A stretch of DNA of 64,000 nt from NCBI GenBank assembly GCA_027452205.1, contig DAIDGV010000021.1:1-64000 (forward strand). The letters run 5' to 3'. The notes beneath the pieces are model-generated. The model was not told the DNA's origin. It saw only the letters and a program-made list of their open reading frames with translations, and did not search any database. A program made the translations under genes and the position numbers. This document shows, in pieces, positions 1,672 to 20,500 of this stretch; position 1 is the stretch's first letter; every line of letters starts with the position of its first letter. Source of the stretch: a candidate division FCPU426 bacterium (GTDB lineage: Bacteria; Oederibacteriota; Muellerivitia; Muellerivitales; Muellerivitaceae).

Positions 1672-4596
1672 GTGAAGAGCTTTGTCATATCGGACCTTTT
1701 TGCCAAAAGGTTAAAACGATTTTACTGTCACGCGCTCATATTGATTTTAGCGATGAGCGCGGTACCTTCCTCTGTGTCCGCTGCCTTTACCGCCATTTAC
1801 GCTTCGGACGGCAATGACGGCTATACCTTCACCGGTTGTTTCACGGTGGCGAACTTAAAAGCCTCTTGTTGGAACGGCATCATCATGTTCGCCGCGTCGG
1901 TGCAGCCCAACGGCGATATCACCGCCGGGGGCAATACGCTGGTATCGAACGGCGTTTATATGGGGGACGCGAACTGGGGATCGAACGTGACGAACCTCAA
2001 GACCCCGCCGACCTCGGTGACCCGTTATGAACTTTGCGTGGGCGGCTGGGGAGACACTAGTTACGCGAACATCCAGAACATCATCAACAGCCAGGGCGCT
2101 TACGGCATCCTCTACACCAATTTCCGCGCGCTGAAGAATGCCTGCCCGGGTTTGGACGCCATCAACGACGATGATGAGGGCAATTACGACCTGAACTCCT
2201 CCATCCAATTCGGGCAGATGCTTTACAACAGCTGCGGCCTGAAATTCACCCAGGTGCCTTATCAGAACCAAAGCTTTTGGGTGTCGTTGAAGAACAGTTT
2301 GGGCGCGGCTTGCGATCTGGTCTATCTGCAATGCTACCAGGGCGGGGCGGGGAACAATCCGGCCCAGTGGGATTCGGCTTATGGTGGCGGGTTCCATGTG
2401 ATCCCCGGTGAAGAAACGAACTACGCCAGCCAATCGCAATTCGCCACCTGGGCCTCGACGGGATCGACCGGCGGGTTCTTTTGGCCGGACTGGTATTACT
2501 GCCCGGGCACTAACTGGCCGACACTGATCGCCCAGGGCATCGGCACGAGCTGTTCGCTGCCCGCGGTGAACCCTTACTTGCAGGTGAACGGCGGCGCTTG
2601 GCAGAACACCAACAACGCGACGGTGCCTTTTGGGGCGTTGGTGAATTTAGGCCCGCAGGATTCGGGTGAGGCCTGGAGCTGGACGGGACCGGGAGGATAT
2701 ACCTCCACTTCCCGCGAGATCGACAGCATTCCCCTGAGTGTGGGCGTGAATACCTTCACCGTGACCAACACCACCCAATGCGTTTGCAACCAAAGTAATA
2801 CTTTCACCATCACCATGCAGCCGCCGGCGGCCTGCGCCAACGGCAACGCCACCTTCGGCAATACCGCGGCGGGCACGGGATGCTGTAATCAGGGTGGGCA
2901 GTTGGACTGCTGTTCTTACAACCTGACCCAACCCATGACGGTCACCTATATGCAGATCTATATGGGATCGGGCACGAATGGCAACGGGGTGCTGGGCATT
3001 TACGCCGATAACGGCGGGTCGCCGGGGACCTTGCTGACCAAGAGTAACGCCATGCAGTTGACCTCGGGCTGGAACACCTTCGCGGTGAACCCGGTCTATT
3101 TGGCGCCGGGCAACTATTGGCTGTCCGCCAGCCTGGATAGCAAGACCAACAATTTTTGGTATTCCAACTCGGGCGGCGGGGGACTGTTGTTCAAGACCTA
3201 CGCTTATAACGGCAACCTGCCCTCGACGCCGGGCGGCGGCATGACGGGCTATGGTTGGCTGATGAGCATCAACGCCAATGGTTGTGTGGTACTGCCCACC
3301 GCCACACCGACCTGGACGGTGCCCGCCTGCACGACCAGCAGCACCACTTTGGGTAATGCGTCCTCAGCGAACGCGGGGTCCGCCGGGGCGGGTGGCATCA
3401 TTGGCGGCACCACTTACACCTTGTCCCAGCCGATGACGGTGACGTCGCTTTCGTTCTATTTCTCCGGCGGCACCAACGGCAGCGGGGTGGTGGGTCTTTA
3501 TTCGGACTCGGGTGGAAGGCCCGGGACACTCTTGGTGCAGAGCAACGCGCAAAGCCTGAACTCGGGGGGCTGGAATAATTTTGTGGTGACGCCGACGGCG
3601 ATCCAGCCGGGCAATTATTGGATCTACGGAAGCTTTTCGGGCACGGCGAACTGGCAATATTCCAATGGTTGCTGCACCGGGGGTTATCTCTTTGGAAGCT
3701 ATACCTATAACGGAAGCCTGCCGAACACGATCACCACGACCCTGACCGGTTATGGCTGGACCATGTGCGCTTACGCCAGCGGCTGCCTGCAGCCCACCGC
3801 GACGATGACCAACACGCCGCGCATGACATCGACCAGTACGGTGACGAACAGTCCAACGCAGACATCGACGGTGACCAATACCCCGACCGTGACGGATAGC
3901 CCGACGCAGACCAACACGGCCACGAATAGCGCGACCCATACCGTGACGAACACGGCCACCAATACGGCCACGCATACATCGACCAACACCGCGACTTCAA
4001 CGGCGACGAATAGTTCGACCTCGACGGCCACGAATACCGCGACCAAAACGAATAGTCAGACCGCCACCAATACCCGAACCGCTTCCTCCACCCCGACGGA
4101 AACTGATACGGCCACCAGCAGCGCGACCCACACGGCCTCAAATACGGCCACGGTGACCCATACCCAAACCCAAACTTCGACCGCTTCCAGCAGCCCGACC
4201 GAAACCCATAGCGCGACGATGACCTCCACGCCGACCGCAACCTCCACTTTGACCAGCACCAACACGCCCAAGGCCACCAGTACCCATACGGCGACCTGTA
4301 CCGTGACGATCACCAACACGCCCTCGGTCACGAAGCCGGTCATTTATCCCAATCCGGTGGCGGGTCCGACGGTGACCCTGCAATTGCCCGGAAATAATTT
4401 GACCAACGTGAGCGTGGAAATTTTCACGCTCTCTTTCCGCGAGATCAAAACGGTGACAATGCCCCAAGTGGTTGGAAGCAGTTTGGTGATCGATTTGACG
4501 GACCGTTTCAGCAAGCAATTGGCGAACGGTCTTTATTACTTCCGGATCACGGTGGGGAACAAAAAATGGGTCGAAAAGTTACTGGTGCTGCGTTGA
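1672..4596 (+). CDS. Large secreted GH18-like barrel protein with two Cys-bounded modules and C-terminal sorting domain
   Basis: 974 aa from a GTG start. A signal peptide (about 1-37, hydrophobic core ALILILAMSAVP) precedes a barrel-like region at about 40-298. There the motif AINDDDE (residues 163-169) resembles the DxxDxDxE active-site strand of GH18, but the match is weak, so the enzyme activity is tentative. An Ig-like segment (about 298-385) follows, then two copies of a roughly 150-aa Cys-bounded beta-rich module (about 388-543 and 552-707). A Thr/Ser/Asn linker (about 708-886) leads to a type IX-like sorting domain (888-974) with IYPNP, LANGLYYFRI and KLLVLR. The protein is probably exported to the cell surface. 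The conserved hairpin leader lies directly upstream. Confidence 0.75.
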   Translation: MKSFVISDLFAKRLKRFYCHALILILAMSAVPSSVSAAFTAIYASDGNDGYTFTGCFTVANLKASCWNGIIMFAASVQPNGDITAGGNTLVSNGVYMGDANWGSNVTNLKTPPTSVTRYELCVGGWGDTSYANIQNIINSQGAYGILYTNFRALKNACPGLDAINDDDEGNYDLNSSIQFGQMLYNSCGLKFTQVPYQNQSFWVSLKNSLGAACDLVYLQCYQGGAGNNPAQWDSAYGGGFHVIPGEETNYASQSQFATWASTGSTGGFFWPDWYYCPGTNWPTLIAQGIGTSCSLPAVNPYLQVNGGAWQNTNNATVPFGALVNLGPQDSGEAWSWTGPGGYTSTSREIDSIPLSVGVNTFTVTNTTQCVCNQSNTFTITMQPPAACANGNATFGNTAAGTGCCNQGGQLDCCSYNLTQPMTVTYMQIYMGSGTNGNGVLGIYADNGGSPGTLLTKSNAMQLTSGWNTFAVNPVYLAPGNYWLSASLDSKTNNFWYSNSGGGGLLFKTYAYNGNLPSTPGGGMTGYGWLMSINANGCVVLPTATPTWTVPACTTSSTTLGNASSANAGSAGAGGIIGGTTYTLSQPMTVTSLSFYFSGGTNGSGVVGLYSDSGGRPGTLLVQSNAQSLNSGGWNNFVVTPTAIQPGNYWIYGSFSGTANWQYSNGCCTGGYLFGSYTYNGSLPNTITTTLTGYGWTMCAYASGCLQPTATMTNTPRMTSTSTVTNSPTQTSTVTNTPTVTDSPTQTNTATNSATHTVTNTATNTATHTSTNTATSTATNSSTSTATNTATKTNSQTATNTRTASSTPTETDTATSSATHTASNTATVTHTQTQTSTASSSPTETHSATMTSTPTATSTLTSTNTPKATSTHTATCTVTITNTPSVTKPVIYPNPVAGPTVTLQLPGNNLTNVSVEIFTLSFREIKTVTMPQVVGSSLVIDLTDRFSKQLANGLYYFRITVGNKKWVEKLLVLR

Positions 4597-4625
4597 GGGG
4601 GCGATGAGGTTGAAAATCTCTCTGT

Positions 4626-4793
4626 ATGCAACCGTTTGAAGGGTGCGTTAATCGTATACGTTTTTTTGTTAATTCCATCAATTTCATAAAACCTGGTAAC
4701 CGTTAAGCTCTATCTAACTTCTTTCCTTTCAACGCCCTGAACAACGCCTGAAGGCGCTTTATATGAATTGAGAAAGAAGTTGATCGGGGAAAT
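4626..4793 (+). promoter_or_regulatory. Conserved structured leader, copy 2
   Basis: Closely similar to the leader at 1511-1671. The outer stem AACTTCTTT (4716-4724) with AAAGAAGTT (4773-4781) is kept at 9 bp. The inner stem here is CGCC (4745-4748) with GGCG (4753-4756), loop TGAA. A 14-nt longer spacer separates the inner hairpin from the outer 3' arm. TGATCGGGGAA then abuts the GTG start at 4794. Retention of both arms while surrounding bases change favours RNA structure. Confidence 0.55.
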
Positions 4794-7700
4794 GTGGAAA
4801 TTACTACGTTTCAAAACTCTTTGAACAAGGGTTTGAAATTTTCAGTTCGGTGGAACCTCATATCGTTTCTTTTGGAACGATCGATTCTTCTTTTTTTACC
4901 CCTCTTTCTCATAACGATGCCCGCTTGGGCGGACGGGGCCTTTGGACCGCAGCACGGGGTTGCCATCGGACCGGTCGTCGTCAACTTCTCTGACCTGGCG
5001 AACAAACAAGCCAAGGGTCTTTTGCCCGTTTCCAAACCGATCCAAATGTACGAACAGGACGAGGACCAGGGCCCGGCCCTGCCGGCCACGAATCCTTTGG
5101 CCAAGATATCTCACTTGATCCTGCCGAACATCCCCGCCGGGGCCTTGGTGCCTTCGCCTTCCAGCGCGATCGATTTTGAGGGACAAACCAACGGGGGATG
5201 GAACCCGCCGGATACCGAAGGGGCGGTCGGCCCCAATCACGTCATCTCGATGGTCAATAGCTGGATCAACATCAAGGACAAGTCGGGCAACTTGCTGAAA
5301 AGCGTGGATATGCAAAGTTTCTGGTCGGGCGGCGGCATCGCCACTTACGGCAGCGCTTTCGACCCCCGGGCCCAATATGACCCGATCAGCCAGCGCTTCA
5401 TCATCCTTTGCGGCAGCGGTATCGGCGACCTGAACCAATCGCAGGTCCTGTTGGCGGTGAGCCAAACCTCGGACCCGACGGGTAGCTGGAACCTTTATAG
5501 TTTCTTCGCGGACAACAACACCCCGACCCAGCATTGGCTGGACTATCCCACGATGGGTTTCAACAGCAAGTGGATCCTGATCCACGGCGACCTGTTCGGG
5601 CAGAACGGCGGCTCGACCGAGGATGGGATGTGGGCCTTCAATAAAGCCAACCTTTACGCCGGGGGCGCGGCCCAATACACCTTCATGGTCGCCGGGAGCT
5701 GGATGTGCATGCCCGCGGAAACCTATGACGCGGCCGAGCCCGATGAATATGTGGTCTGGAACGACAGTAACAGCAGTGTGGCGCTCTGGAAACTGACCGG
5801 CGCCATCGGCAGTGAGAGCTTGGTGCAGGTGGCCAGCGTTGGTTCGCCCCTGGGATGGACGGGTAGCGACGCGCCCGCGCCCCAGTTGGGGTCTTCGGTC
5901 ACGATCGGCGGGGGCGTGGGCGTCTTCATGAGCTGTATCTACCGCAACAGCTCGATCTGGGCCTGCGAGAGCGTGGCGCCGAACAGCGGGCCGACCCGAT
6001 CCTGCGCCCAATTCTTCCAGATGGATACCTCAGGTAATTTGCAGCAGTTCGGCCGGGTGGACGATCCCACGGGCACCAACTTCTATAACTTCGCCTCGAT
6101 GGGCGTCAACACCAACAACGATATCCTGGTGGGGTTCACCGTCTATTCATCCAGCATCTATCCCAGCTGCGCTTACGCTTACCACTCGGCCTCGGACCCG
6201 GCGGGTAGTTTCCGCGATCCTTATATCTATAAAGCGGGCGGCGGGGACGGCCAGAGCCGGTGGGGGGACTACAGCCACACCGAAGTGGACCCGACCAACA
6301 ACCTGGACTTTTGGACGGTGCAGGAATACCAGAACGGCGGCGGATGGGACACCTGGTGGGCCAAGGTGGCCGCTTTGTCCATCGCCACCGCGACCCCGAC
6401 GCCGAGCTTTACACCCACGACCGTGCCGCCCGTTTGCGCCTCTTGGGTGGTCAACGGCAACGCGAGCCAGGGCGCAGGGGTAACCTTGACCATAGCGGCC
6501 AATGGGGAAACCGGAACGGCTTGGAACACGAGCACCCTGGACTTGACGAAGGACTTTAACCTGGCCTTCAAAGCTTACTTTGGGGCGCCGGGCGGGGCGG
6601 ACGGCATCGACTTCGTCCTGCAGAACGACCCGCGCGCCACGGCGGCGATCGGCGGAGGGGGCGGGGGCAAGGGTTATTCGGGCGGGGTTTCGATCACGCC
6701 CTCGGTGGCTTTCGACCTGGAAACCTATGGCAGCAACGGCACCCTGCAAATGCTGGAGAACGGCAACACGACCAATACCTGCGCTTATGTGGCGGGCACT
6801 TGCCCCTATGTGTTCTCCTCGAACATCGCCAATTCCGCCGAGCATAGCTATCAAGTGACCTGGAGCGCCTCGGCTAAACAACTGATGCTGATCGTCGATG
6901 GCAACGTGGTGATGACCTATAACCGGGACCTAGTGGCGTCGGTCTTTGGCGGCAATAGCAACGTCTTTTACGGATTTACCGGGGCCACCGGCGGTTCGAA
7001 CAACTTGCAATATGTCTATCAGGTGGGCTGCGTGGTCCCGACGCCGACCGCGACCATTCCCGCTTGCACGACCAGCTCGACCACCCTGGGCAATACCTCC
7101 TCGGCTAACGCGGGTTCCGCGGGCGCCGGGGGCTATATTGGCGGCACCACTTACACCTTGTCCCAGGCGATGACGGTGACCTCGCTGTCGCTTTATTTCT
7201 CCTCGGGCACCAACGGGAACGGGGTGGTGGGTCTTTATTCGGATTCGTCGGGTAATCCCAACTCGCTGTTGGTGAAGAGCAATCCGCAAGTCCTGAACGC
7301 GGACGCCTGGAACAGCTTTGTAGTGACGCCGACGGTGATCCCGGCGGGCAAATATTGGATCTATGGCAGTTTCACGGGTACGGTGAATTGGCAGTATTCC
7401 AGCGGCTGCTGCGCGGGCGGCTATCTGTGGGGCGCCTATAGCTATAACGGCAACTTGCCCGCGACGATGGTCGGCGGGCTGACCGGATATGGCTGGACCA
7501 TGTGCGCTTACGCCAGCGGCTGTCTACAGCCCACGGCGACCATGACCGCGACCGGGACAAGCACGGCTACTTCCACCCCGGCCTATACGGCGACCGCCAC
7601 CTCGACCGCGACAGGTACGAATAGCGCGACCTCGACGGCCACTTCGACCGCGACCCAAACCGCGACCAATAGCGCCACCAAAACGAATTCGGCCACCCAA

Positions 7701-8333
7701 ACTTCCACTTCGACCCGGACGAATACCGCCACATCCACGGCCACTTCCAGCGCGACCTCGACGGCGACCCAGACGGCGACCAACAGCGCCACCTCGACCC
7801 GGACGAACACCGTGACTTCCACGGCTACGCCGACCTCGACCTTTACCCTGACCGAGACCTCGACCAGCAGTTCCACGGCGACCGCGACGGTGACGCCGAC
7901 CCGAACCTCCACCTCGACGGCGACGGTCACCCACACCCAAACCTGCACCTCGACCCCGACCAAGACCAATACCATGACCGCCACGGTGAGCTGCACCAAT
8001 ACACCCACGGTGACAAGGACCTATACGGTGACCGCGACCCAAACCCCGACGGACACGCCCCTGGTCACCCAGCCGGTGATCTATCCCAATCCGGCGACGG
8101 GAAATCAGGTGGCCCTGGCGCTGCCCAAACTGAACGCAGCATCGGTCACGGTGGAGATATTCACCCTGTCCTTCCGCGAGGTGCAAACCTATCACTTCGC
8201 GCAAGTGGCCGGAAGTACGGTGATCCTGCCCCTTTACGACAAGGGCGGCGTGGCTCTCGCTAATGGGCTTTATTACCTGCGGGTCACGGTGGATGGTCAT
8301 AAGTGGATCGTGAAGTTGCTGGTCCTCAAATGA
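4794..8333 (+). CDS. Secreted propeller-like protein with L-type lectin domain and C-terminal sorting domain
   Basis: 1179 aa, GTG start; the overlapping ATG two bases earlier hits a stop after ten codons. A signal peptide ends near PAWA-DG (about residue 46). Residues about 100-535 resemble an uncharacterised secreted propeller family marked by PPDTEGAVGPNH and FDPRAQYDPISQRFI. Residues about 544-747 are a bacterial L-type (legume-like) lectin with GADGIDFVLQNDPRATAAIG, likely binding mannose-type glycans. Then follow one copy of the Cys-bounded module (756-912), a Thr/Ser linker (913-1090) and a sorting domain (1092-1179). The next gene starts inside the stop codon (ATGA overlap), so the two are probably co-translated. 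No catalytic motif is evident. Confidence 0.78.
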   Translation: MEITTFQNSLNKGLKFSVRWNLISFLLERSILLFLPLFLITMPAWADGAFGPQHGVAIGPVVVNFSDLANKQAKGLLPVSKPIQMYEQDEDQGPALPATNPLAKISHLILPNIPAGALVPSPSSAIDFEGQTNGGWNPPDTEGAVGPNHVISMVNSWINIKDKSGNLLKSVDMQSFWSGGGIATYGSAFDPRAQYDPISQRFIILCGSGIGDLNQSQVLLAVSQTSDPTGSWNLYSFFADNNTPTQHWLDYPTMGFNSKWILIHGDLFGQNGGSTEDGMWAFNKANLYAGGAAQYTFMVAGSWMCMPAETYDAAEPDEYVVWNDSNSSVALWKLTGAIGSESLVQVASVGSPLGWTGSDAPAPQLGSSVTIGGGVGVFMSCIYRNSSIWACESVAPNSGPTRSCAQFFQMDTSGNLQQFGRVDDPTGTNFYNFASMGVNTNNDILVGFTVYSSSIYPSCAYAYHSASDPAGSFRDPYIYKAGGGDGQSRWGDYSHTEVDPTNNLDFWTVQEYQNGGGWDTWWAKVAALSIATATPTPSFTPTTVPPVCASWVVNGNASQGAGVTLTIAANGETGTAWNTSTLDLTKDFNLAFKAYFGAPGGADGIDFVLQNDPRATAAIGGGGGGKGYSGGVSITPSVAFDLETYGSNGTLQMLENGNTTNTCAYVAGTCPYVFSSNIANSAEHSYQVTWSASAKQLMLIVDGNVVMTYNRDLVASVFGGNSNVFYGFTGATGGSNNLQYVYQVGCVVPTPTATIPACTTSSTTLGNTSSANAGSAGAGGYIGGTTYTLSQAMTVTSLSLYFSSGTNGNGVVGLYSDSSGNPNSLLVKSNPQVLNADAWNSFVVTPTVIPAGKYWIYGSFTGTVNWQYSSGCCAGGYLWGAYSYNGNLPATMVGGLTGYGWTMCAYASGCLQPTATMTATGTSTATSTPAYTATATSTATGTNSATSTATSTATQTATNSATKTNSATQTSTSTRTNTATSTATSSATSTATQTATNSATSTRTNTVTSTATPTSTFTLTETSTSSSTATATVTPTRTSTSTATVTHTQTCTSTPTKTNTMTATVSCTNTPTVTRTYTVTATQTPTDTPLVTQPVIYPNPATGNQVALALPKLNAASVTVEIFTLSFREVQTYHFAQVAGSTVILPLYDKGGVALANGLYYLRVTVDGHKWIVKLLVLK

Positions 8334-11300
8334 GGCGGGTTGTTATCGTCTCGTGCGTGCTTTTTTTGAGCGGACTGACTCATAACGTTTTCGCGGACTT
8401 CAACACGAATGACGATACTGCCGCGGCGGTCCTGCAGACCTATTACAACAGCAGCGGTCTATGGGACGGCACTTTCGCGGGTTGGGGCGACGCGGAAGCT
8501 TTAGAGACGGTTGAGAACACCATTCTTCGCACCAATGGGCAGTCCTCTTACCTTTCCGACATCGCTACGACCTACAACGACAATTACAGCGGGGGCTTTA
8601 TCGATAATTACTATGACGACGAGGGTTGGTGGTGCAATGCCTGGATCCGGGCTTATGACCTGACGGGCAACACGACCTATCTGAACATGGCCAAGTCCAT
8701 CTATAGCGACATCGTGGGCGGATGGGATGCTTCGGTCTGTAACGGCGGGCTTTGGTGGCAGAAGCCGAACAATTATAAAAGTTCCATCTCGAACGAGCTT
8801 TTCCTGCTGGAGTCCATCCGCCTTCACCAGCGCACGCCCGGGGACAGCTATTACCTGAATTGGGCCAACGCCGAATGGACCTGGTTCAGCGGGACCGGCG
8901 TGATCAATGGGAACAACCTGATCAACGACGGGGTCGATTCCACGACCTGCGGGAACAACGGCGGGGGGATCTACACCTACAACCAGGGGGTCATCCTGGC
9001 GGGCCTAACGGACCTCTATAAAGAGACCCTGAACACCGCTTATTTAACGAAGGCCGAATCGATCGCGAACGCGGTGTTGAATTCCGCCAATGGACTGGTG
9101 AACACCAGTGAGATCGTTACCCAGGGCGGGCCCGGGGACGGATCGGAGTTCAACGGCATCTTCGCCCGTTATCTGTTCTATCTCTATGACACCGACCACA
9201 ACCCGGCCTATTACAACTTCCTCGTGGCCAACGCTAATTCCATCTGGGCCAATGACCGGGATGGGTCCAATAACTTGGGTTACCTTTGGACCGGGCCGGT
9301 GAACCTGTCCATGCCGGGCAGTCACGTTTCGTCCATGGACCCGGGGGCGGTCATTGCCAAACCCTGGACCACGACGATGGTCTATGCCCGGGGCGCGGGC
9401 GACCCGGAACTGAACCACTCGACGGGTTACGCGACGGGCACCCTGGCTTGGGCTTGCGACAACACTTCCTCCCAGACCTTCATGCAATGGGGCCCCTATG
9501 TGTCGTACCTATCAGCGGGAAGCCACACGGTGCATTTCCGGCTGGCCTCGTCGGTGACCAATTGCTCGCCGGTGAGCCTGTTGACCCTGCAGATCACCAG
9601 TAACAGCGGTACGGTCACCCAGGGCAGTATGAACGTGCCTTGGGCCGCCTTCGTGGAAGCGAACAAACCGCAGGATTTCGCCGTGAGTTATACCGACAAC
9701 ACCGCCAATGATCCTTTGGAGTTCCGTGTGATATGGAACGCGGTCCCGGGAACGCCCAAGGTGACCCTATCGGATATCACGGTGGATGGGAACTACAACT
9801 GGACCGCCGCCAACCTGACCCACGACATTGGCCGCCTGGACGGGGTGAACGACTGGGAGGCGGATTCGGTGAAGGATTCGGCCTCGGGTTATATGATCCG
9901 GGGGCCGGGTACCGCGGAACTTGGCAACGCTAATTGCCAGGCGGTCTTCGAGATGAAGGTGGATAACTTCAATTGGGATAACAACCAGGTGGCAACCTTG
10001 TCGGTGGTTGATGTGGATACCGGCACCACAGTGGCCAGCCAGAACGTGACGAGGAACCAGTTCAACACCATCTTGTTCCAGGACTTCACCCTGAATTTCA
10101 CCGCCACGCTGGGCCATCACTATGACTACCGGGTCTATTATGACGTCTTCAACAATTCGCCCCGGCTGACGGTGCGGGGCATCTATACCAGCATCCTTTC
10201 GGCCAATCCGGCGGCCACCCCGACCGCGATCGCCTGCGCCAGCGGCGGGACCTTTGGCAATACGGTGTCGGGCACCGGCGGTTATAACCTGGGCGGCCAG
10301 ATCGATTGCGCGAAATACAATTTGGCCCAGGCCATGACGGTGACCTCCATCAGCATCTATATGGGAGCGGGTACTTCGGGCAATGGAGTCTTGGGGATCT
10401 ATTCAGATAGCGGCGGGCCGGCGAATCTTTTGGTGCAAAGTTCGGCCCAGCCCTTGTTCGCGGGATGGAATACCGTGGGAGTGACCCCGACGGTGCTGAC
10501 GGCGGGCAACTACTGGCTATCGGGAAGTTTTACTGGCAACGCGGTCTTTGACTATTCGAATAGCAATGGCGGGACGATGTCCTGGACCAATTACACCTAT
10601 AGCGGCACCTTGCCCTGCACGGTGGGAGGCTTGACCGGTTATGGCTGGTTGATGAGTATTTACGCCAGCGGTTGTTTACAGCCGACCCCAACGATGACCC
10701 AGACCCATACCTCGACCGATACGGCGACCAACAGCCCTACCTGCACCCCGACGGCGAGCAGTACCGCCACTTTGACCGACACGGCCACCCTGGGCGAGAC
10801 CGCCACGAATAGCGCGACGAATACGGTCACGAACAGCCCTTCCTCGACGCCCAGCGAGACGGAGACCAGTTCGGCGACCTCGACGAATACGATCACTCCC
10901 ATGCCCACTTCGACCAGCACCCTTACCCCGGTCTCGAGCTATACGAGCACCTCGACCCAAACGGTTACTTTTACAGGGACGAGTACAGCTACTCGAACAG
11001 CGACGAACAGCGCCACTTCGACGGCGACAAACAGCGCTACTTCGACCGCGACGAATACCGCCACCAAAACGAGTAGCCAGACCGCGACGAGCACCTGCAC
11101 CGCTTCGTCGACGCCGACCGCGAGTTTTACTTCGACCAGCACGGCGACAAATAGAGCCACCAACACTGCGACGGTGACTCGTACGCAAACTTCGACATGG
11201 ACCGCTTCTTCGAGTCCGACTCAGACCGGCAGTTCCACCGCCACTTCGACACTGACAGCCACGGCGACCTCGACAGGCACCAGCACGCCCAAGGCCACCA

Positions 11301-11617
11301 ATACCCGCACGGCTACTTGCACCGCGACGGTGACCAACACGCCTGCGATGACCAAGGCGGTCATCTATCCGAACCCGGCGACGGGGGACCGTGTGGAAGT
11401 AGCGGTGCCTAAAGCGAACCCGAGTGAAGTAACCATCGAGATCTTCACGATTTCGTTCCGGGAGATCGCGACGGTTCAGGTGAGCCAAGTGGTGGGGAAC
11501 ACGGTGTTGGTGCCGCTTTATGACAAGCGGGGAACGGCCTTCGCCAACGGGCTTTATTACTTCCGGGTGACGGTGGACGGACAAAAATACATCACAAAGC
11601 TGTTGGTGCTGCGCTAG
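8330..11617 (+). CDS. Secreted GH76 family alpha-1,6-mannanase with C-terminal sorting domain
   Basis: 1095 aa from the ATG at 8330, which overlaps the previous stop by 4 nt; a longer GTG start would place the signal peptide internally. The signal peptide is 1-22 (NVFA-DFN). Residues 23-325 match GH76: WGDAEALETVENTIL, the catalytic-type YYDDEGWWCNAW (Asp97-Asp98), CNGGLWW and SNELFLLESIRL. GH76 enzymes cleave alpha-1,6-mannan backbones, as in yeast cell-wall mannan. Two beta-sandwich regions of carbohydrate-binding appearance (about 330-630) follow. After them come one Cys-bounded module (634-785), a Thr/Ser linker (786-1010) and the sorting domain (1010-1095, IYPNP to KLLVLR). Confidence 0.85.
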   Translation: MRRVVIVSCVLFLSGLTHNVFADFNTNDDTAAAVLQTYYNSSGLWDGTFAGWGDAEALETVENTILRTNGQSSYLSDIATTYNDNYSGGFIDNYYDDEGWWCNAWIRAYDLTGNTTYLNMAKSIYSDIVGGWDASVCNGGLWWQKPNNYKSSISNELFLLESIRLHQRTPGDSYYLNWANAEWTWFSGTGVINGNNLINDGVDSTTCGNNGGGIYTYNQGVILAGLTDLYKETLNTAYLTKAESIANAVLNSANGLVNTSEIVTQGGPGDGSEFNGIFARYLFYLYDTDHNPAYYNFLVANANSIWANDRDGSNNLGYLWTGPVNLSMPGSHVSSMDPGAVIAKPWTTTMVYARGAGDPELNHSTGYATGTLAWACDNTSSQTFMQWGPYVSYLSAGSHTVHFRLASSVTNCSPVSLLTLQITSNSGTVTQGSMNVPWAAFVEANKPQDFAVSYTDNTANDPLEFRVIWNAVPGTPKVTLSDITVDGNYNWTAANLTHDIGRLDGVNDWEADSVKDSASGYMIRGPGTAELGNANCQAVFEMKVDNFNWDNNQVATLSVVDVDTGTTVASQNVTRNQFNTILFQDFTLNFTATLGHHYDYRVYYDVFNNSPRLTVRGIYTSILSANPAATPTAIACASGGTFGNTVSGTGGYNLGGQIDCAKYNLAQAMTVTSISIYMGAGTSGNGVLGIYSDSGGPANLLVQSSAQPLFAGWNTVGVTPTVLTAGNYWLSGSFTGNAVFDYSNSNGGTMSWTNYTYSGTLPCTVGGLTGYGWLMSIYASGCLQPTPTMTQTHTSTDTATNSPTCTPTASSTATLTDTATLGETATNSATNTVTNSPSSTPSETETSSATSTNTITPMPTSTSTLTPVSSYTSTSTQTVTFTGTSTATRTATNSATSTATNSATSTATNTATKTSSQTATSTCTASSTPTASFTSTSTATNRATNTATVTRTQTSTWTASSSPTQTGSSTATSTLTATATSTGTSTPKATNTRTATCTATVTNTPAMTKAVIYPNPATGDRVEVAVPKANPSEVTIEIFTISFREIATVQVSQVVGNTVLVPLYDKRGTAFANGLYYFRVTVDGQKYITKLLVLR

Positions 11618-11631
11618 GCGAGGCAAAACCG

Positions 11632-11726: not shown

Positions 11727-11888
11727 GAAGGTTTATGGGGGGTGTTGGCTGGGATGAGTGGCTTGAGGTTTTACATTTAACCTTAAAAAAGGCCTTAGGC
11801 TAAGGAAAACAAGGGTTTAGGGGCGGGAAATTAATTTTAGGGTGATAATGGTGCGGTCATCGCATCCGGTAATGGGAAGGGAGTTTCT

Positions 11889-12326
11889 GTGTCTCGGAAA
11901 AGCCGTCGGCGTCAAAAGAAAACCGATCCCACTGCTCAAAGAACAGGCTTGGTAGCCGGCTTGTTCCTGATCTTCGTTTCCTTGGCGGCGGCCTATCAAA
12001 GCCCGCGCGTCCAGTTCTTCTTTCACTCTATTCAAAATCATCCGGCCCTTCAGGGTGTTGCCGGAAAAATTCCGGATCCGGACAACGGCATCGACGGGGC
12101 GAAAGGGAACGATCCCAGCGAAAAGGAAAGGCTCAAGCCTGAAGATGAGGACCGGAACGGGGATGATTCGCTGAAGTTCAAAAAGCGCGCTTATGATTTC
12201 CGCGCTTATCCGAACAAGACCATTCCGGCGGGTTCACGGGAAAGGGCCTGGGAACAGTTCCAACAACACTATCCGCCGGACCAGAAAAAATCCTTGTGGA
12301 AACCCGCGAAGCAGGCGTTCCAATGA
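11889..12326 (+). CDS. Small membrane-anchored protein of unknown function
   Basis: 145 aa from a GTG at 11889, preceded by GGGAAGGGAG. The N-terminus is strongly basic (MSRKSRRRQKK), followed by one hydrophobic segment (about 20-36, VAGLFLIFVSLAAAY). This predicts a single inward-anchored membrane helix or uncleaved signal. The rest is highly charged and acidic-proline rich (about 60-100), then a basic tail ending KQAFQ. I do not recognise a family. Its stop codon overlaps the start of the next gene by 4 nt, so it may be co-produced with that large surface protein, perhaps as a partner. That role is inference from coupling only. Confidence 0.65.
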   Translation: MSRKSRRRQKKTDPTAQRTGLVAGLFLIFVSLAAAYQSPRVQFFFHSIQNHPALQGVAGKIPDPDNGIDGAKGNDPSEKERLKPEDEDRNGDDSLKFKKRAYDFRAYPNKTIPAGSRERAWEQFQQHYPPDQKKSLWKPAKQAFQ

Positions 12327-15300
12327 GAACCCCGGGGACAGTGAAAAGATCAGGGGTCCTGACAGGGGCGGTCTGGCTTTTATTGGCGTTGGCTCTTGGG
12401 GCCCAGAGCGCCTATGCGCTCTCTCCCCAGTGGATCCCGGTTGGGCCGGTCTATCTGACTGAAGGGTATAATCCCTCCAACCAGAAGGACAATGGCCGCA
12501 TCTGGAACATCGCGGTGGACCCTTCCAATGTCAACCACATCCTGATCTTCTCGGATTCGGGCGGTATTTGGCAGACGACGAACGACGGGACGACCTGGAC
12601 GCCGCAGACGGACGACTATCCTTCCTTCAACGTTTCCTATAACAACAATTCAGGCGCCATCGCTTTTGCCGCTTCCAGCCCGAACATCGTTTACGCCAAT
12701 ACCCAGCCCGCGGAAGACGGCTGGGGCGGGGTCATCAAGTCCACCGATGGCGGCAGCACCTGGAACGAGATCGCCACTTACAACAACATCCTGGGGACGA
12801 ACTATTACACCAACATGCGGGACATGCTGGTGGACCCGGCCAACCCGAACAATTTGGAATTTGACTGTAAGTATTCCTGGTATGTGGGGCCCACCTGGGG
12901 AAATATCGGCGGGGTGTATAAGTCAACCGATGGGGGATCGACCTGGACCAACACCTTCCAGGGCACGATTGGCGTGCCGGGACCGTGCCTGGTGGCCAGC
13001 TCCTCCAATTTCAGTAATCAGTATTTCGCGAACAGCACCAATATCGGATCGAACCCCACGGCGGGCATCTACCGGTCCACCAACGCGGGCACCAGCTGGT
13101 CGGTCGTCAGCGGGCCCTGGTCGTCGGTGAGCGGATTGGCGGACCTGTTCGTGGCCATCGCCCCCTCGGACCAGAACACCGTGTATGTCATCGCCTCCAC
13201 CGGCGACTATGCCTACAACCCCCCGGGTTTCTACATGACCTCCAACGCCTGGGCCGCCACGCCGACCTGGACCAGCCTGACCCCGCCGATCAGCTCGCCG
13301 GACGGTTTTAAGGTGCAACCGACCAATTCGCAGATGATCTTCCTGGACTTCTATAACTATTACTGCAACAGCCCCTGCACCGACAGCTGGACCAACTACG
13401 AAACCTTCAACGTAGCCAACGGCGCCGGGTCGGCCTGGACCGAATATTACGCGGGCAACAGTCCCTTCCATGCGGACGGCCGGGAACTGTGCTGGCAAAA
13501 CAACACCAACTTGTTAGCAAGCTGCGACGGCGGGATTTTTCTTAGCACCGACTCGGGAAATACCTTTAACGACATCAACGAGGGCGGCCTGCAAACCATG
13601 ATGATCTATGGCCACTCGGGCAGCGTGCAGCCGGGATATCCTTCCAACCTGGTCGGCGGGGGCACACAGGATAACGGCACGCAGCTTTCCATCGGGGGCG
13701 GGGTTTTCTCCCAAAGCTTGGCGGGCGGCGACGGTAGTTCGAACCAGCAAGACTTCTTTGGCGATGCGGCGGGAGCGCTGGGCACCTCCAGCAATGGCAC
13801 GATGTACCGATCCACGAACCCCAGCGTCTGGAACAACCCCAGCTTTTATTACACCTCTACGGGCCAACAAGTAGGGTCGCTCACGGGCATTCAAGCGACC
13901 GCGCGTTCTTATAACAATCAGAACTATGTATTGGCCGGCGCGAGCACGACTTTGTACCAAGCCACGGATTTTTGGAGCAATCCCACCTCCACGAACGTGG
14001 TGTGGACCAACATATCCTCCGGTATCGCGCCCACGGGGAACATCCAATATGTCGAATATGCCCTGGCGGACACGACGAACAAGACCATCGCCTTCACGGA
14101 CGCCAAGAACGAGATATGGGTGACTTCCAACGGGGGCGCGTCCTGGAACGGCCCGGTGACCAACGGCCTGCCGAACTTGAACATAACCCAGGTGACCTTC
14201 AACCCCGCGAACGCGAACACCCTTTACGCGGTCTATTCGGGGTACAACGGGACACCCGCCGGGCATATCTTCGTCACCGCCAACGCGCTGGCGGCCTTCC
14301 CGACATGGACGAGCATCGACGATGGGGTGAACATTCCCCATAACTGTATCGCGGTGGACCCGAATACGCCCGCGGATATCTTCGTGGGCACGGATATCGG
14401 CATGCTTTACAGCACCAACTCGGGGACCAGTTGGACGGCCATGAACCCGGCTTCCACCGGAATGCCGAACGTGAGCGTGCAGCAACTGATGTTCGAGAAA
14501 AGCACGGATACGCTGACCGCCTGGACCTTCGGGCGCGGCATCTTCCAAATGCAGATGAATAACTACACGGCGACCCCCACCTATACCCCGACCGTGACCC
14601 CCACCTTCTCGGCCTGCTCAAGCTGGGTCGTGAACGGCAACGCCACCCAGGGCGCCGCCGTCACCCTGACCACCGCCACCAACGGGCAAGTGGGATCGGC
14701 CTGGAACCGTAACTGCATCAACCTGACCCAGAATTTCAATATGACCTTCAAGACTTATTTCGGGGCGGCCGCCGGCGCGGACGGCATGGACTTTGTGCTG
14801 CAAAACGACCCGCGGGGCACCGCCGCCATCGGGGGAGGCGGCGGCGACAAAGGTTATTCGGGAACCAACGCCATCACGCCCTCGATGGCCTTTTGCCTGG
14901 AAACCTACGCCAACAATGGGACCCTGCAGCCGGAAGAGAACGGATCGACTACCAGCACCTGCGGCTATACGACCGGCGGACTTTGTCCTTTCACGTTTGG
15001 GACCGCCATCAATAACGGGGTGGAGCACACTTATAACGTCACCTGGGACCCGACGGCCAAGGTGCTGACCCTTTACATGGATGGGGCGGTGGTGATGACC
15101 TACAACCGGGACCTGGTGGCCAATGTGTTCGGCGGGTCCACTTGTGTTTATTACGGATTTACCGGCGCGACCGGCGGGGCGAACGATCTTCAATACTTCT
15201 ACCAGACCAATTGTTTTACGGACACGCCCACCCCCACGACGACCCATACTTCCACGGTCACGCCCACTGGTACGCAGACCAATACGCCGACCAGCCAATA

Positions 15301-15964
15301 TACGAACACGGCCACCAACACCGCTTCGCCTAGTTCGACGGCCACGTATAGCGCGACTTCGACGTCGACGAACAGCGCGACATCGACCGCGACCAAAACC
15401 AACTCGGCCACCGAAACCTCTACCTCGACCGGGACGAATACCGTGACTTTCACGGCCACACCCACGGAGACCTTTACGATGACCGAGACCTCGACCAGCA
15501 GTTCCACGGCGACCGCGACGGTGACCCCGACCCGAACCTCCACCTCGACGGCGACGGTCACGGATACCCAGACCTGTTCCCCGACGCCGACCAACACCAA
15601 TACCATGACCGCCACGGTAAGCTGTACCAGCACGCCTACGGTGACAAGGACCTATACGGTGACGGAAACCCAAACCCCGACGGCGACGCCTTTGGTCACC
15701 CAACCGGTGATCTTCCCGAATCCGGCGACGGGCAACCAAGTGGCCTTGGCGCTGCCCAAACTGAACGCGGGTTCAGTAACGGTGGAAATTTTCACTCTCT
15801 CGTTCCGCGAGGTGCAGACTTACCGTTTTGCGCAGGTGGTGGGGAGCACGGTGGTCTTGCCCCTTACTGACAAGAGTGGGACAGCCCTGGCCAACGGGCT
15901 TTATTACTTAAGGGTCACGGTCGATGGCCACAAATGGATTCTGAAACTGCTAGTACTGAAGTAG
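12323..15964 (+). CDS. Secreted BNR-type propeller protein with L-type lectin domain and C-terminal sorting domain
   Basis: 1213 aa from the ATG at 12323 (ATGA overlap with the upstream gene). The signal peptide ends near residue 32 (QSAYA-LSP). Residues about 33-750 contain repeated STDGGSTW / TNAGTSW / TSNGGASW motifs (Asp-box/BNR type) in a large propeller. The layout resembles GH74, sialidase or sortilin-type folds, but I cannot assign an active site. Residues about 764-964 are an L-type lectin closely similar to that in the protein at 4794-8333 (GADGMDFVLQNDPRGTAAIG). A Thr/Ser linker (965-1125) and sorting domain (1127-1213) follow. Part of the linker DNA is nearly identical to that of the 4794 gene. 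The Cys-bounded module is absent. Confidence 0.78.
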   Translation: MRTPGTVKRSGVLTGAVWLLLALALGAQSAYALSPQWIPVGPVYLTEGYNPSNQKDNGRIWNIAVDPSNVNHILIFSDSGGIWQTTNDGTTWTPQTDDYPSFNVSYNNNSGAIAFAASSPNIVYANTQPAEDGWGGVIKSTDGGSTWNEIATYNNILGTNYYTNMRDMLVDPANPNNLEFDCKYSWYVGPTWGNIGGVYKSTDGGSTWTNTFQGTIGVPGPCLVASSSNFSNQYFANSTNIGSNPTAGIYRSTNAGTSWSVVSGPWSSVSGLADLFVAIAPSDQNTVYVIASTGDYAYNPPGFYMTSNAWAATPTWTSLTPPISSPDGFKVQPTNSQMIFLDFYNYYCNSPCTDSWTNYETFNVANGAGSAWTEYYAGNSPFHADGRELCWQNNTNLLASCDGGIFLSTDSGNTFNDINEGGLQTMMIYGHSGSVQPGYPSNLVGGGTQDNGTQLSIGGGVFSQSLAGGDGSSNQQDFFGDAAGALGTSSNGTMYRSTNPSVWNNPSFYYTSTGQQVGSLTGIQATARSYNNQNYVLAGASTTLYQATDFWSNPTSTNVVWTNISSGIAPTGNIQYVEYALADTTNKTIAFTDAKNEIWVTSNGGASWNGPVTNGLPNLNITQVTFNPANANTLYAVYSGYNGTPAGHIFVTANALAAFPTWTSIDDGVNIPHNCIAVDPNTPADIFVGTDIGMLYSTNSGTSWTAMNPASTGMPNVSVQQLMFEKSTDTLTAWTFGRGIFQMQMNNYTATPTYTPTVTPTFSACSSWVVNGNATQGAAVTLTTATNGQVGSAWNRNCINLTQNFNMTFKTYFGAAAGADGMDFVLQNDPRGTAAIGGGGGDKGYSGTNAITPSMAFCLETYANNGTLQPEENGSTTSTCGYTTGGLCPFTFGTAINNGVEHTYNVTWDPTAKVLTLYMDGAVVMTYNRDLVANVFGGSTCVYYGFTGATGGANDLQYFYQTNCFTDTPTPTTTHTSTVTPTGTQTNTPTSQYTNTATNTASPSSTATYSATSTSTNSATSTATKTNSATETSTSTGTNTVTFTATPTETFTMTETSTSSSTATATVTPTRTSTSTATVTDTQTCSPTPTNTNTMTATVSCTSTPTVTRTYTVTETQTPTATPLVTQPVIFPNPATGNQVALALPKLNAGSVTVEIFTLSFREVQTYRFAQVVGSTVVLPLTDKSGTALANGLYYLRVTVDGHKWILKLLVLK

Positions 15965-16111
15965 ATCCAGTCAGAATTCAAACCCCAAGAAATACCTTTG
16001 TAAATCAACGGTTGCTTGAGGTCCAATCGACAACCTCATCTTGAGAATAACTCGGTTAGGTTGGTAGCATTCTATGAGTTAGTCCTATTTCAACGGGGAG
16101 CAAAAGAGATC

Positions 16112-16801
16112 ATGCATAGCTGGCCCCGACTTAAAATGATCGTCTTTTTTATGGTTGTCGGATGGAGTGCTTTGACCGCAGCTTGGGCGCAGAATGACGG
16201 GAACACAAAGCCTTTATTAACTATTCGCCCAGTGTTCTTTTGTTTAGGGGCCGGAATTCCCTTGATGGGTAGTGGGTTCGGGACGGAATACGATCCCTGG
16301 GTAGATTCGGGGAGCTATACCTTGGCTAATGGTTATGGAACGAAATATGACGTCGGTCCCGTTTTCGAGTTCGCTTTTGGTGTGGATCTGGACGACAATT
16401 GGTCTCTAGAGCTTGACGCGGAACTTTCCTATTTTTTGGGTTCGCAGGTCGGTATTTCCTCAGTCGAGACTAGTTTAGTTCCCTGTGTGCAGTACAACTT
16501 GGACCATGCATGGGCAACGCCTTATTTCAAGGTGGGATGTGGCTTGAACATCAACGATTCGAACACACCCGCAGGCACCTATACCGGATATACCAACAAC
16601 GGTGGAAATTATTACCAGACGGCGGATACCAATGGGTTGTCAGTCTTGAATCCGGTTTTGTGCGGAGGTGTGGGAGTTCTGATTGAAAATCCTTGGACTT
16701 CCAAAATCCAAATTTATGTCCAAGCGCTATACGATATGAGTTTTACATCACGAGGAGATTTTTCTTATTTCCCGATTACTGCCGGATTGCGGTTCCAGTG
16801 A
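16112..16801 (+). CDS. Outer-membrane beta-barrel protein
   Basis: 229 aa from the ATG at 16112, preceded by GGGGAG about 12 nt upstream. A signal peptide (about 1-26, ALTAAWA-QND) is followed by alternating hydrophobic strands such as VGPVFEFAFGVDLDDNWSLELDAELSYFLG, here given only as motif FEFAFGV and SLELDAEL. The chain ends in an aromatic-rich strand (FPITAGLRFQ), typical of outer-membrane barrels of the OmpA/OMP_b-brl type. Length suits an 8- to 10-stranded barrel. It sits between two surface-protein genes, and a decayed sorting-domain tail follows its stop directly. It lacks its own Thr-rich linker or sorting domain. Function is unknown; a role in anchoring or transport is possible. Confidence 0.7.
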   Translation: MHSWPRLKMIVFFMVVGWSALTAAWAQNDGNTKPLLTIRPVFFCLGAGIPLMGSGFGTEYDPWVDSGSYTLANGYGTKYDVGPVFEFAFGVDLDDNWSLELDAELSYFLGSQVGISSVETSLVPCVQYNLDHAWATPYFKVGCGLNINDSNTPAGTYTGYTNNGGNYYQTADTNGLSVLNPVLCGGVGVLIENPWTSKIQIYVQALYDMSFTSRGDFSYFPITAGLRFQ

Positions 16802-16803
16802 AC

Positions 16804-16844
16804 GGCCATAAAGTGGATATTGAAATTGTTGGTGTTGAAAGTAG
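16804..16844 (+). pseudogene. Fossil 3' end of a sorting-domain surface-protein gene
   Basis: Directly after the barrel gene stop, the bases starting GGCCATAA encode, with one extra base, the ending HKWILKLLVLK followed by GTAG. Intact genes here end GHKWIVKLLVLK or GHKWILKLLVLK and then a stop. A one-base insertion after CATAA and another before TAG break the frame. Only about 40 bp remain. I read it as the relic of a deleted surface-protein gene. Confidence 0.6.
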
Positions 16845-16860
16845 GTAAGACAAAGTTAAT

Positions 16861-17307
16861 GGAACCACGGATGTAGGGGATCAACGGCCACGGCGAAACC
16901 GATTTAGCCACAGATGCATGGGATTCATGGGATGAACAGCAAGGCAAAACCAATTGGCCGCAGATGTCCCGTTGGGCGGGACTATACCGATCTCCATGAA
17001 AAGTTTGAGCAAAGAGGATCGGCATGAACGCAGATTTTCGCTGTTAAAAAATCATAAGACTTTGCCTTTAAACAGCGATTATTTGCGTGAATTTGCGGCC
17101 AAAAGTTTTTTGTCGCCTATCCCGAATAACGCCTCAAGAGATCGCGTCGGCCACGGATGTAGGGGATCAACGGCCAAGGCGAAACCAATCTAGCCACAGA
17201 TGCAGGGGATGCATGGGATAAAGACGAAAGCTTAAACAGATTTGATTTTTCAAAAACAAGATGTCCCTTTGTTTTCATCCCCTGAATCCCCTGCATCTGT
17301 GGCTCAA
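16861..17307. repeat. Cluster of direct and inverted CCACAGATG/CCACGGATG repeats
   Basis: Direct copies of CCACGGATGTAGGGGATCAA lie at 16865 and 17151, each running about 37 bp with one or two changes. CCACAGATGCA copies lie at about 16908 and 17194. A 19-bp perfect inverted pair, AGCCACAGATGCAGGGGAT (17192-17210) and its complement (17286-17304), could form a long hairpin. An unrelated insert of about 150 bp separates GCCGCAGATG (16968) from later copies. No gene is visible in 16845-17361. Confidence 0.8.
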
Positions 17308-17361
17308 TTGATCTAGGAATTAAGCCTCATCCATCACTGTTGCGCCTGAATTCAAAAAATA

Positions 17362-17515
17362 CAACCGTTTGAAAATGGCCTAAAAACGACATTAATTCCA
17401 TACATCGACGCGATAATCCGGTCAATTTCCAATTCCCCCAACCTATGAAATCATTCAATGCAACAGACCCTTTTGGAACAACGTCTGAAAACGTTATCGG
17501 GGAAGGACTCTAATT
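17362..17515 (+). promoter_or_regulatory. Conserved leader, diverged copy 3
   Basis: Shares CAACCGTTTGAAA (17362-17374), GTCAATTTC, GGAACAACG and ATCGGGGAA with the leaders at 1511 and 4626. The inner hairpin is AACGT (17480-17484) with ACGTT (17491-17495) and loop CTGAAA. Compared with copy 1 the closing C-G pair has become T-A, a compensatory change. The outer AACTTCTTT stem is missing. Start codon is TTG at 17516, about 14 nt after the GGGGAAGGA run. Confidence 0.5.
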
Positions 17516-20500
17516 TTGCATAAAATTGATTTTAGCTGGATGACCCCAGCCATCAAGAAGATCTCCTTCGCTTTGCTTTTCTTCACACTCCTCGCCCTTT
17601 CTCAAAACGCCCAAGCCCAATGGACCCTCGTTTGGAGCGATGAATTCAACGGCGCCGCCGGGACTGCCCCGGATTCGACCAAATGGACCTACGACACGGG
17701 CGTCAACCAGCCAAACAACGAACTGGAAAATTACACCAACTCCACCCAGAACTCCTATATGGACGGTAACGGCCATCTGGTCATCCAAGCTTTGGATCCG
17801 GGCGGCAATAACGGCGCGATGGGCAGTTACACTTCGGCCCGTTTGAAGTCCCAAGGGTTGTTCGATCAAGCTTACGGGATGATCGAATGTTCCATGCAGT
17901 TGCCCGCGGGCGGCCCGGGGATCTGGCCAGCTTTCTGGATGCTAGGTGAGAATATCGGTTCGGTGGGTTGGCCGGCTTGTGGTGAGATCGACATGATGGA
18001 GGATGGTCTGCCTTGGTCGAACACCGTCATTGGGGAGCATGTCCATGGGACCCAGAGCGGCGGCGGGGACTATAACGGCGGGGCGGGCGTGGGATCGAAT
18101 ATCACTATCCCCAGCGGTACGGTCAATAGCGGGTTCCACACCTACGGGGTCACTTGGAGCCCGAACTGGATCCAGTTCTTTGTGGACGGGGTCAATTATC
18201 AATCCATCAGCCCCAGCAGCGTGCCGGGCTCTTATCCTTTCAATCATCCTTTCTTCCTGCTCCTCAATTTGGCGATCGGTGGACCTTCGGGAAGCCCTAC
18301 GGGTTCGTCTTTCCCGCAACAAATGCTGGTGGACTATGTGCGTGTCTATAAGTTGACCAACAACGGTACCACTCCTTATGGCGGGACCGCGGCGACCGTT
18401 CCGGGTCTTATCAGCGCCGCGAACTATGACAGCTATAACGACACGAGCGATCCTGTCGAACCCGGCGAGGGATTTGCTTACAACGCCAAGCAGACCAACA
18501 ACATCAGCGGCCAATACCGCACGGGTGACGCCATCAGCATCGAGCCTTGCAGTGACGCGGGCGGGGTGCCTTACGACGTGGATTACACCAGCCCGGGTCA
18601 ATGGCTGCAGTACACCATCAACGCGACGACATCCGGCGCCTATAACCTGGACGTACGTGTAGCCAGCAGCGGCCAGGGTGGTTCCTTCCACTTCGATCTG
18701 GACGGCAACACGGTGACCGGGGAATTGACCTGCCCGAATACGGGTGGCTGGCAGAACTGGACCGATGTGACGGCTAGCGGCATCAATATCACCGCGGGCC
18801 AGCACACCCTGCTTTTGGTGGAAGACACCATGGGCGCGGGTAACGCGGGGGTCTGTAATTTCCACACGATCAATCTGACCTTGCCGAACCCTCCGACAGC
18901 CACACCGACCTTTACGCCGGTGGTCTCGAATACCTGGCGCGTTGTCGCTGGGGGACCGGCCCATACGGATTGCAATAGCAATGTCTGGGCGGCGGACGAG
19001 AATTTCACTGGCGGAACGGCTGCGGTAGCTTCGACCAATACGGTCTCCAGCGTCCTTCCTTGCTCGACGGACCAAGCGCTTTATCAAAATCAACGTTATG
19101 GCACCTTTAGCTACAGCTTCAACGTGCCAGCGGGGAATTACCAAGTGACCTTGAAGTTCGCCGAGACCTATTCGGGCGATTTTGCCAATGGGGATCGGGT
19201 GATGAATGTCTCCATTAATGGTACCCAGGTCTTAACAGGCCTAGATGTTTACGCCAGCGTTGGCGGGAATGTCGGTTTGGATAAGGTCTTCAATAACATT
19301 GCCCCCTCGGGTGGGGTCATTACCATTTCCTTCGCGGCGACCAGCACGGTCGACACAAATGCCGATGTTTCGGCTATCCAGATCATCCCGGAACCGGCCA
19401 CGCCGACACCGACATGGACGGTTCCGGCTTGTACGACCTCTAGCAATACTTTCGGCAATACAGCGGCGGGGACCGGTGGTTATAACCAAGCGGGTCTTGT
19501 GAACTGCGCCCGCGCGACCTTGAGCCAACCGCTGACGGTCACTTCCATGCAGGTCTATATGGGAGCGGGCACGTCAGGTAATGGGGTGTTAGGTATCTAT
19601 GCCGATGGCGGCGGGGTGCCGGGTGGATTGTTGGTGGCCAGTAACGCCCAGGTCTTGAGCACGGGTTGGAACTATTTTGTGGTGCCGCCGATCGTTCTTC
19701 CGGCGGGGAGCTATTGGTTGTCGGGTAGTTTCAGCGGTAACGCGGTATTCGAGTATTCTTCAGCCAACGGCGGTCAGATGAATTTTGCTACTTATACCTA
19801 TACGGGTGGTTTGCCCAACGCGGTCACGGGAACGACGGGTTATGGCTGGTTGATGAGTATTTACGCCAGTGGCTGCGCGCAGCCGACCGTTACGCCGACC
19901 CGCAGCGCTACACCGATGACCTGCGGAAACAGCACGACGGTCTTTATCGGCAGCGACAATACCAACATGGCTTGGACCAATTGCAACGCCCCGACGGCGA
20001 CGCCTCCGGCGGATGGCGGCGGCAACGCCTGGAACAGCGCCAATTACAATCCGGCGGGGGTCAACGGTTGGATCCCGGCGGAAGTGATCAATTCTTTAGC
20101 GGGCGGATGGGCCGCTCCTTGTAGCATGGCGGGTTCGGGCTTGGTCCCCAACTGGATCTCGGTGATCCCTTCGGCCAGCCAGGGCAATGGGCCCTGTAAC
20201 GGCACTAACGGACAGCTTTACTACTATACGAAGACCTTCACCTTGCCGGCGGGCACCAACGTGTCCAGTGCTACCATGCAGATCGCGGCGGATGACGGCA
20301 CCTCGGGCGGTGGCACGGAGCCTTTTGGCCTTTATGTGAACGGTAACGCCGTTCCATCCGGCACCTTGATCTGGAGCTCTTGCAATACGGTCACGATCCC
20401 GGGTGCGGATTTCCGTCCGGGGAACAATATCGTCACTTTTGTGGATGAGAACGAGTCCGGTGGGCAGGGAATCGCTTATCAGCTTTCTATGTCGCTGCAA

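Follow-up and report, generated by a model that had tools for sequence, protein, structure and literature searches.

The window, i.e. the whole stretch of 64,000 nucleotides analysed here from a candidate division FCPU426 bacterium, holds four genes whose secreted multidomain products carry five copies of one Cys-bounded module of 151-156 residues (Table 1). No further copy was found in this genome by a genome-wide search; a sixth match at C3 (E 0.126) was judged by eye to be unrelated.

Table 1. Module copies and host genes in the window
Feature	Positions	Strand	Cys-to-Cys limits	Description
Host gene 1	1672..4596	+		N-terminal domain without Pfam/PDB match, two modules, Thr/Ser/Pro linker, T9SS-type tail
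Module copy 1	2824..3288	+	2833-3285	First of tandem pair in gene 1672-4596; choice_anch_R 23.7 bits, DUF4082 16.7 bits (both sub-threshold)
Boundary Cys codons of copy 1	2833 and 3283-3285	+		
Module copy 2	3322..3789	+	3328-3786	Second of tandem pair in gene 1672-4596; choice_anch_R 18.5 bits, DUF4082 17.9 bits
Host gene 2	4794..8333	+		N-terminal region, L-type lectin (aa 550-742), module, linker, T9SS-type tail
Module copy 3	7059..7526	+	7065-7523	In gene 4794-8333, after L-type lectin domain; choice_anch_R 24.8 bits, E 1.8e-5; AF2 pLDDT 88.9
Host gene 3	8303..11617	+		GH76 (aa 42-330), module, linker, T9SS-type tail
Module copy 4	10226..10678	+	10235-10675	In gene 8303-11617, after GH76 catalytic domain; AF2 pLDDT 74.1; phrog_25864 E 1.5e-4
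Host gene 5	17516..21703	+		GH16, CBM6, malectin, module, unassigned domain, linker, CBM5/12, T9SS-type tail
Module copy 5	19421..19879	+	19430-19876	In gene 17516-21703, after GH16, CBM6, malectin; choice_anch_R 15.7 bits

The module and its host genes

Pairwise identity among the five copies is 47-78%, copies 2 and 3 being 78% identical. In a similarity search the other copies matched the copy at 10.2 kb with E-values of 3e-55 to 5e-33, so their likeness is not due to chance. An initial annotation of this DNA had described such a recurrent module in five copies, and this was borne out, as all five lie in frame in the genes named and the measured Cys-to-Cys limits agree with the earlier ones within a few bases. 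The motifs it listed are partly looser than claimed: TGYGW is present in all five copies, but only the copy at 3322 has LSQPMTVTS in its exact form, GNYW varies to GKYW and GSYW, LGNT reads LGNA in one copy, and YASGC reads NANGC in another. The position given for the module, between a catalytic or lectin part and the linker, is broadly right, except for the tandem pair in gene 1 and the extra domain that follows the module in gene 5.

The C-terminal tails of the four host proteins pass the NCBIfam T9SS type A cut-off. A fifth protein of the set, encoded at 12296-15964, shares the L-type lectin and the tail but not the module, and the cluster also holds two GH18 proteins with malectin and CBM5/12. 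The region 1672-32015 thus encodes a secreted set (GH76, GH16, two GH18 proteins, malectin and L-type lectins, with CBM5/12 in three proteins) and accounts for seven of the 23 matches to the T9SS-type tail in this genome. It looks like an exported set for the degradation of chitin, beta-glucan and alpha-mannan, perhaps from fungal walls. As only four of the 23 matches belong to proteins with the module, a role for it in sorting or anchoring is unlikely.

Several parts of these proteins have no assignment. The N-terminal domain of gene 1 (1783-2610) had no match in Pfam or in a PDB sequence search. It contains a DxxDxDxE-like string, which we took to point to GH18, but with nothing in Pfam or PDB and only 2.5% in hhalign to the two GH18 domains of the window, this identity was rejected. 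A close relative of the domain in another genome (G018, L077:4131-5918) occupies the same place, preceding a module. A second such domain, in gene 5 (19913-20470, between module and linker), matched nothing in Pfam or PDB, and the N-terminal region of gene 2 (4965-6420) had no Pfam match of note (best E 0.18). Long ORFs on the minus strand, at 7524-8300 and 10676-11626, are antisense to the Thr-rich linkers and probably no more than artefacts of composition.

Relationship to choice_anch_R and DUF4082

When the full-length host proteins were scanned with Pfam and NCBIfam, nothing was returned on the module even at E 10. We attribute this silence to the HMMER composition filters, which act on Thr-rich proteins; a module member of 2078 residues was missed with default settings and found with the filters off. 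On trimmed copies, the NCBIfam profile choice_anch_R (NF041539) matched four of the five at 15.7-24.8 bits and gave no match in the fifth (curated cut-off, 30 bits), and the Pfam profile DUF4082 (PF13313) matched two at 17.9 and 16.7 bits (gathering score, 28.4 bits). Neither cut-off was reached by any copy, and because the scores for both families are below threshold, the module is not a member of either by the curators' rule.

Profile-profile comparison revealed the relationship. The eight close copies aligned by hhalign with ten above-cut-off choice_anch_R domains, all drawn from the window's own phylum, at 98.9% over 76 columns, and a 27-member family alignment did so with the same ten at 99.6% over 122 columns. 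For two above-cut-off DUF4082 domains, a target profile of two rows only, the values were 96.8% (close copies) and 98.8% (27 members), and for a domain from three viral contigs they were 96.2% and 95.2%. Values stayed at or below 0.7% in all controls, namely the window's L-type lectins, CBM6 and malectin and profiles that had been reversed or column-shuffled. Of these, CBM6 and malectin scored 0.2-0.6%, and membership in CBM6, malectin or L-type lectin was rejected, as profile-profile similarity to them is absent. An early weak PDB match to 1w9s (E 0.02), presumably a CBM6, was repeated by neither profile search.

The likeness to choice_anch_R extends over profile positions 6-146 of 155 in one relative (L010) and 10-116 in the copy at 7059, and the motifs YSDxxGxPGxLL, GWN and GxYW are common to both, whereas the boundary Cys pair and a C-terminal aromatic set are, as far as examined, the module's own. 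DUF4082 shares the same core motifs. One of the two above-cut-off DUF4082 domains, a distant relative of the module, is encoded elsewhere in the same genome (G000:C5:2458-2781, L071).

The initial annotation had found no named domain that matched with certainty and had offered the module as a new one. The first part stands in that the HMM check yielded only sub-threshold choice_anch_R and DUF4082 scores; the second does not, in view of the profile-profile homology to both. We conclude that the module belongs to a known family of beta-sandwich surface domains of uncharacterised function, in which it forms a divergent branch found phylum-wide.

Predicted fold and structural relatives

A first AlphaFold2 model, made with five sequences, had a mean pLDDT of 74.1 and was weaker at residues 111-139; a second, of the copy at 7059 with eleven sequences, reached 88.9. 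The fold results rest on the second model and, as it is a prediction, speak for likeness of fold only. It is an all-beta sandwich with one strand at each chain end.

In the VIA-align comparison, rows 1-15 had Z-scores of 13-17 over 132-151 residues and later rows 10.8 or less. The best row was chain Z of the cyanophage A4 capsid (9jwb_Z; Z 16.7, 150 aligned, 3.0 A, 15% identity), followed by the phi812 baseplate (Z 15.8, 142 aligned, 2.3 A) and the lectin-like domain of Cwp84 (4ci7, 4d59; Z 14.6-14.7, 141 aligned, 3.1 A). The PBCV-1 capsid protein (Z 13.6), the mycobacteriophage tail proteins of Douge (Z 13.4) and Bxb1 (Z 13.0) and a polyvinyl alcohol esterase (Z 13.2) were also found. Acetyl-xylan esterases (AcXE) with a CBM-like domain (FjoAcXE/PbeAcXE; 7tog, 7toh, 7toj, 7tok) matched as full enzymes at Z 13.0-13.3 (PbeAcXE, Z 13.3, 149 aligned, 2.7 A; CspAcXE, Z 13.0) and as the lone CBM domain of FjoAcXE at Z 10.7 (120 aligned, 2.7 A). 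PHR domains scored 9.6-10.8, and classical CBM32, CBM6 and F5/8-type domains 7.4 or less. With both models 9jwb_Z ranked at the top and Cwp84 and the phi812 baseplate ranked high; Foldseek alone gave 9jwb_Z an E-value of 3.5e-7. The predicted whole-domain fold is therefore that of the group formed by the AcXE CBM-like domains, the Cwp84 lectin-like domain and the phage A4 capsid chain. The structure prediction that the initial annotation had suggested as a check thus gave a jelly-roll-like beta-sandwich, with CBM-like and lectin-like domains among the matches.

We are highly confident in the assignment of the module to a beta-sandwich of the choice_anch_R / DUF4082 superfamily. That it might instead represent an entirely novel fold and family with no described relative would agree with the unreached Pfam and NCBIfam cut-offs, but profile-profile and fold comparison, with clean controls, found relatives and ruled out an unrelated fold; we give this reading practically no chance.

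Phage and viral relatives

The phage connection was also seen in sequence. A PDB profile search placed 9jwb_Z, a virion protein and not an enzyme module, first, if weakly (E 0.0091), and phrog_25864, whose function is uncharacterised, matched the window copy at 10226 (Table 1) and, at E 4.8e-11, a viral relative. The profile of a viral phrog_25864 member did not find 9jwb_Z, so the link that would make the two one family is absent from that search. Among predicted viral proteins (BFVD), 40 matches to the first AlphaFold2 model pass E 0.001, many of them phage collagen-repeat or tail proteins. One viral relative of the module (L069:3836-4534) is an ORF of 232 aa that immediately precedes an ORF of 726 aa for a putative terminase, in a probable virion gene cluster.

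These relatives bear on the notion that the module serves protein-protein contact or surface assembly, with a binding partner either on the envelope of the cell itself or among the other enzymes of the set. The closest solved relative is a capsid chain, next come the baseplate of phi812 and tail-tip and fibre domains of mycobacteriophages, and the BFVD and phrog_25864 matches point the same way. Yet the phage tail relatives may themselves bind surface sugars, and export and anchoring do without the module in most tail-bearing proteins of this genome. We regard an assembly role as rather improbable.

Distribution and partner domains

At E<=1e-8, a profile of the eight close copies matched 24 of 240 genomes, all in the window's phylum (24 of the 45 FCPU426 genomes, against none of 195 outside it). 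The scores drop stepwise, from eight full copies (228-253 bits) to three relatives (88-100 bits) and then to the rest (74 bits and below). The eight form a tight subfamily, with five copies in this genome, two in G018 and one in G037. The next three relatives (G006, G004 and G002; best 99.7 bits) directly follow an L-type lectin domain. A scan of the genome contigs with patterns from the close copies gave three loci.

Partners of the tight copies are GH76, GH16 with CBM6 and malectin (here and in G018), L-type lectin and malectin (G037); the remaining tight copies follow the gene 1 N-terminal domain (two copies) and its G018 relative. The wider family was surveyed with Pfam in 43 module-bearing ORFs from 40 regions chosen out of the list of relatives, after the removal of one ORF with a match of 18.9 bits (L093:4939-5598) and of two duplicate loci (L036, L037); as some of the 43 are truncated where a contig or region ends, the counts of partner domains may be too low. 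The survey found DUF5122 propeller in seven, FlgD_ig in six, malectin, SBBP and Por_Secre_tail in three each, Kelch_1 in two, and GH9, GH16, L-type lectin, CBM6, CBM11 and CBM5/12 in one each. A lectin profile derived from the window found three lectin proteins among the module relatives where Pfam found one. Because these counts favour other domains, e.g. beta-propellers, the wider family does not as a rule accompany glycosidases; within it, only the tight subfamily keeps to glycan-related proteins.

In a tree of the modules, whose deep forks are mostly weak, the copies of one genome tend to group (the G018 pair with 98/97; the gene 2 copy and copy 2 of gene 1 with 100/100), which suggests that modules have been duplicated or exchanged in a lineage-specific manner. 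Recent mobile spread found no backing, with no plasmid match and four weak phage matches (best E 0.2). The module-bearing ORF in G037 (L078:3279-5030) starts inside its malectin domain, at profile position 93, and the gene may be broken or misassembled there.

The company that the wider family keeps is what a structural spacer or a folding and stability domain might show: a rigid, disulfide-closed beta-sandwich that distances functional domains from the Thr-rich linker and the cell surface without binding glycan. Modules occur in tandem, with up to five matches in one ORF, their many partners are unrelated to each other (beta-propellers most often), the residues conserved family-wide look structural, and the fold also occurs in a phage capsid (9jwb). 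Such a role would, however, leave unexplained both the glycan-related company of the tight copies and the aromatic set described below, and short proteins consisting of one lone module (L109, L114) have nothing to space. We consider a spacer possible, though not likely.

Conserved cysteines and aromatic residues

The 43 ORFs contain 77 modules, of which nine scored under 50 bits and were left out. Among the other 68 (at least 50 bits), 54 have a Cys near both ends, as against 3.8% of random windows from the same ORFs. The boundary Cys pair is thus a hallmark of this phylum's version of the domain, and we infer that the two cysteines probably form an end-to-end disulfide.

The check for conserved aromatic residues uncovered a set of five that is specific to the subfamily. 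All eight members have an aromatic residue at positions 108, 123, 125, 139 and 141 (numbered as in the copy at 10226), compared with 1/19, 4/19, 1/11, 5/18 and 4/17, respectively, of the relatives outside the subfamily. In the better model these positions lie on two strands (110-114 and 142-144) and in the loops that follow residues 126 and 144, a predicted placement that fits a ligand face, though it does not show one. The family-wide invariants IY, GWN and GxYW look structural.

Discussion

Our results are consistent with the following proposal: each module copy would be an independently folding, jelly-roll-like beta-sandwich of the choice_anch_R / DUF4082 superfamily; its ends would be the first and last beta-strands, probably locked together by the disulfide; it would act as an accessory domain, without catalytic function, in exported enzymes with a T9SS-type tail; and, in the tight subfamily, it would most likely contact polysaccharide beside the catalytic or lectin part, as the CBM-like domain of PbeAcXE holds substrate. 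Candidate contact residues, we infer, are F/W108, Y123, Y125, Y139 and W141 (numbered as above). Carbohydrate contact is our best guess because the tight subfamily keeps to glycan-related proteins and a conserved set of aromatics is particular to it. For this branch, sugar binding is a plausible function and the explanation we favour; for the proposal as a whole, carbohydrate contact included, we judge the chances to be evenly balanced.

The known systems lend themselves to both sides. According to a report on the AcXE enzymes, the CBM-like domain of PbeAcXE contributes Arg25, Asn26 and Arg139 to bound MeGlcpA-Xylp, falls outside every existing CBM family and has no evident classical pocket (PMC9105624). 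Like the module, it is accessory to a secreted carbohydrate-active enzyme; unlike the module, it is described there as N-terminal and packed on the SGNH domain, and no sequence match between the two was found. The Cwp84 domain, which shares the fold and likewise belongs to a bacterial surface protein, was named lectin-like; in that report it has many non-carbohydrate structural matches and the usual carbohydrate site was not found, its sugar binding is putative, and, in contrast to the module, it carries Ca2+ and packs on a protease (PMC4089489). A Cwp84-like domain in a tail protein of the Bacillus phages Deep-Blue and Vp4 has been listed as a putative CBM fold (PMC11406892). Three points argue against a glycan role for the module: phage capsids, baseplates and PHR domains make use of the fold as well; few of the 43 ORFs have glycan-related Pfam domains, compared with seven with DUF5122 and three with SBBP; and, by analogy, the authors on Cwp84 and on PbeAcXE/CspAcXE report that the carbohydrate pocket of their CBM matches is not evident. 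Searches of the open literature returned no functional study of choice-of-anchor R or DUF4082, and no paper on the cyanophage A4 capsid or the polyvinyl alcohol esterase structure.

A domain that standard annotation of Thr-rich full-length proteins misses has now been given a fold, relatives and a testable set of residues, and it ties two unexplained bacterial families, choice_anch_R and DUF4082, to domains of phage virions, AcXE enzymes and Cwp84. More tentatively, and with the balance of probability against it, a beta-sandwich that phages use in capsids, baseplates and tail fibres may have expanded in FCPU426 into a Cys-closed surface module, one branch of which would have acquired a conserved face of aromatics and turned into a new wall-polysaccharide-binding family within a secreted set that degrades chitin, glucan and mannan. 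If the aromatic branch does bind glycans of fungal or plant walls, it would be a new CBM family.
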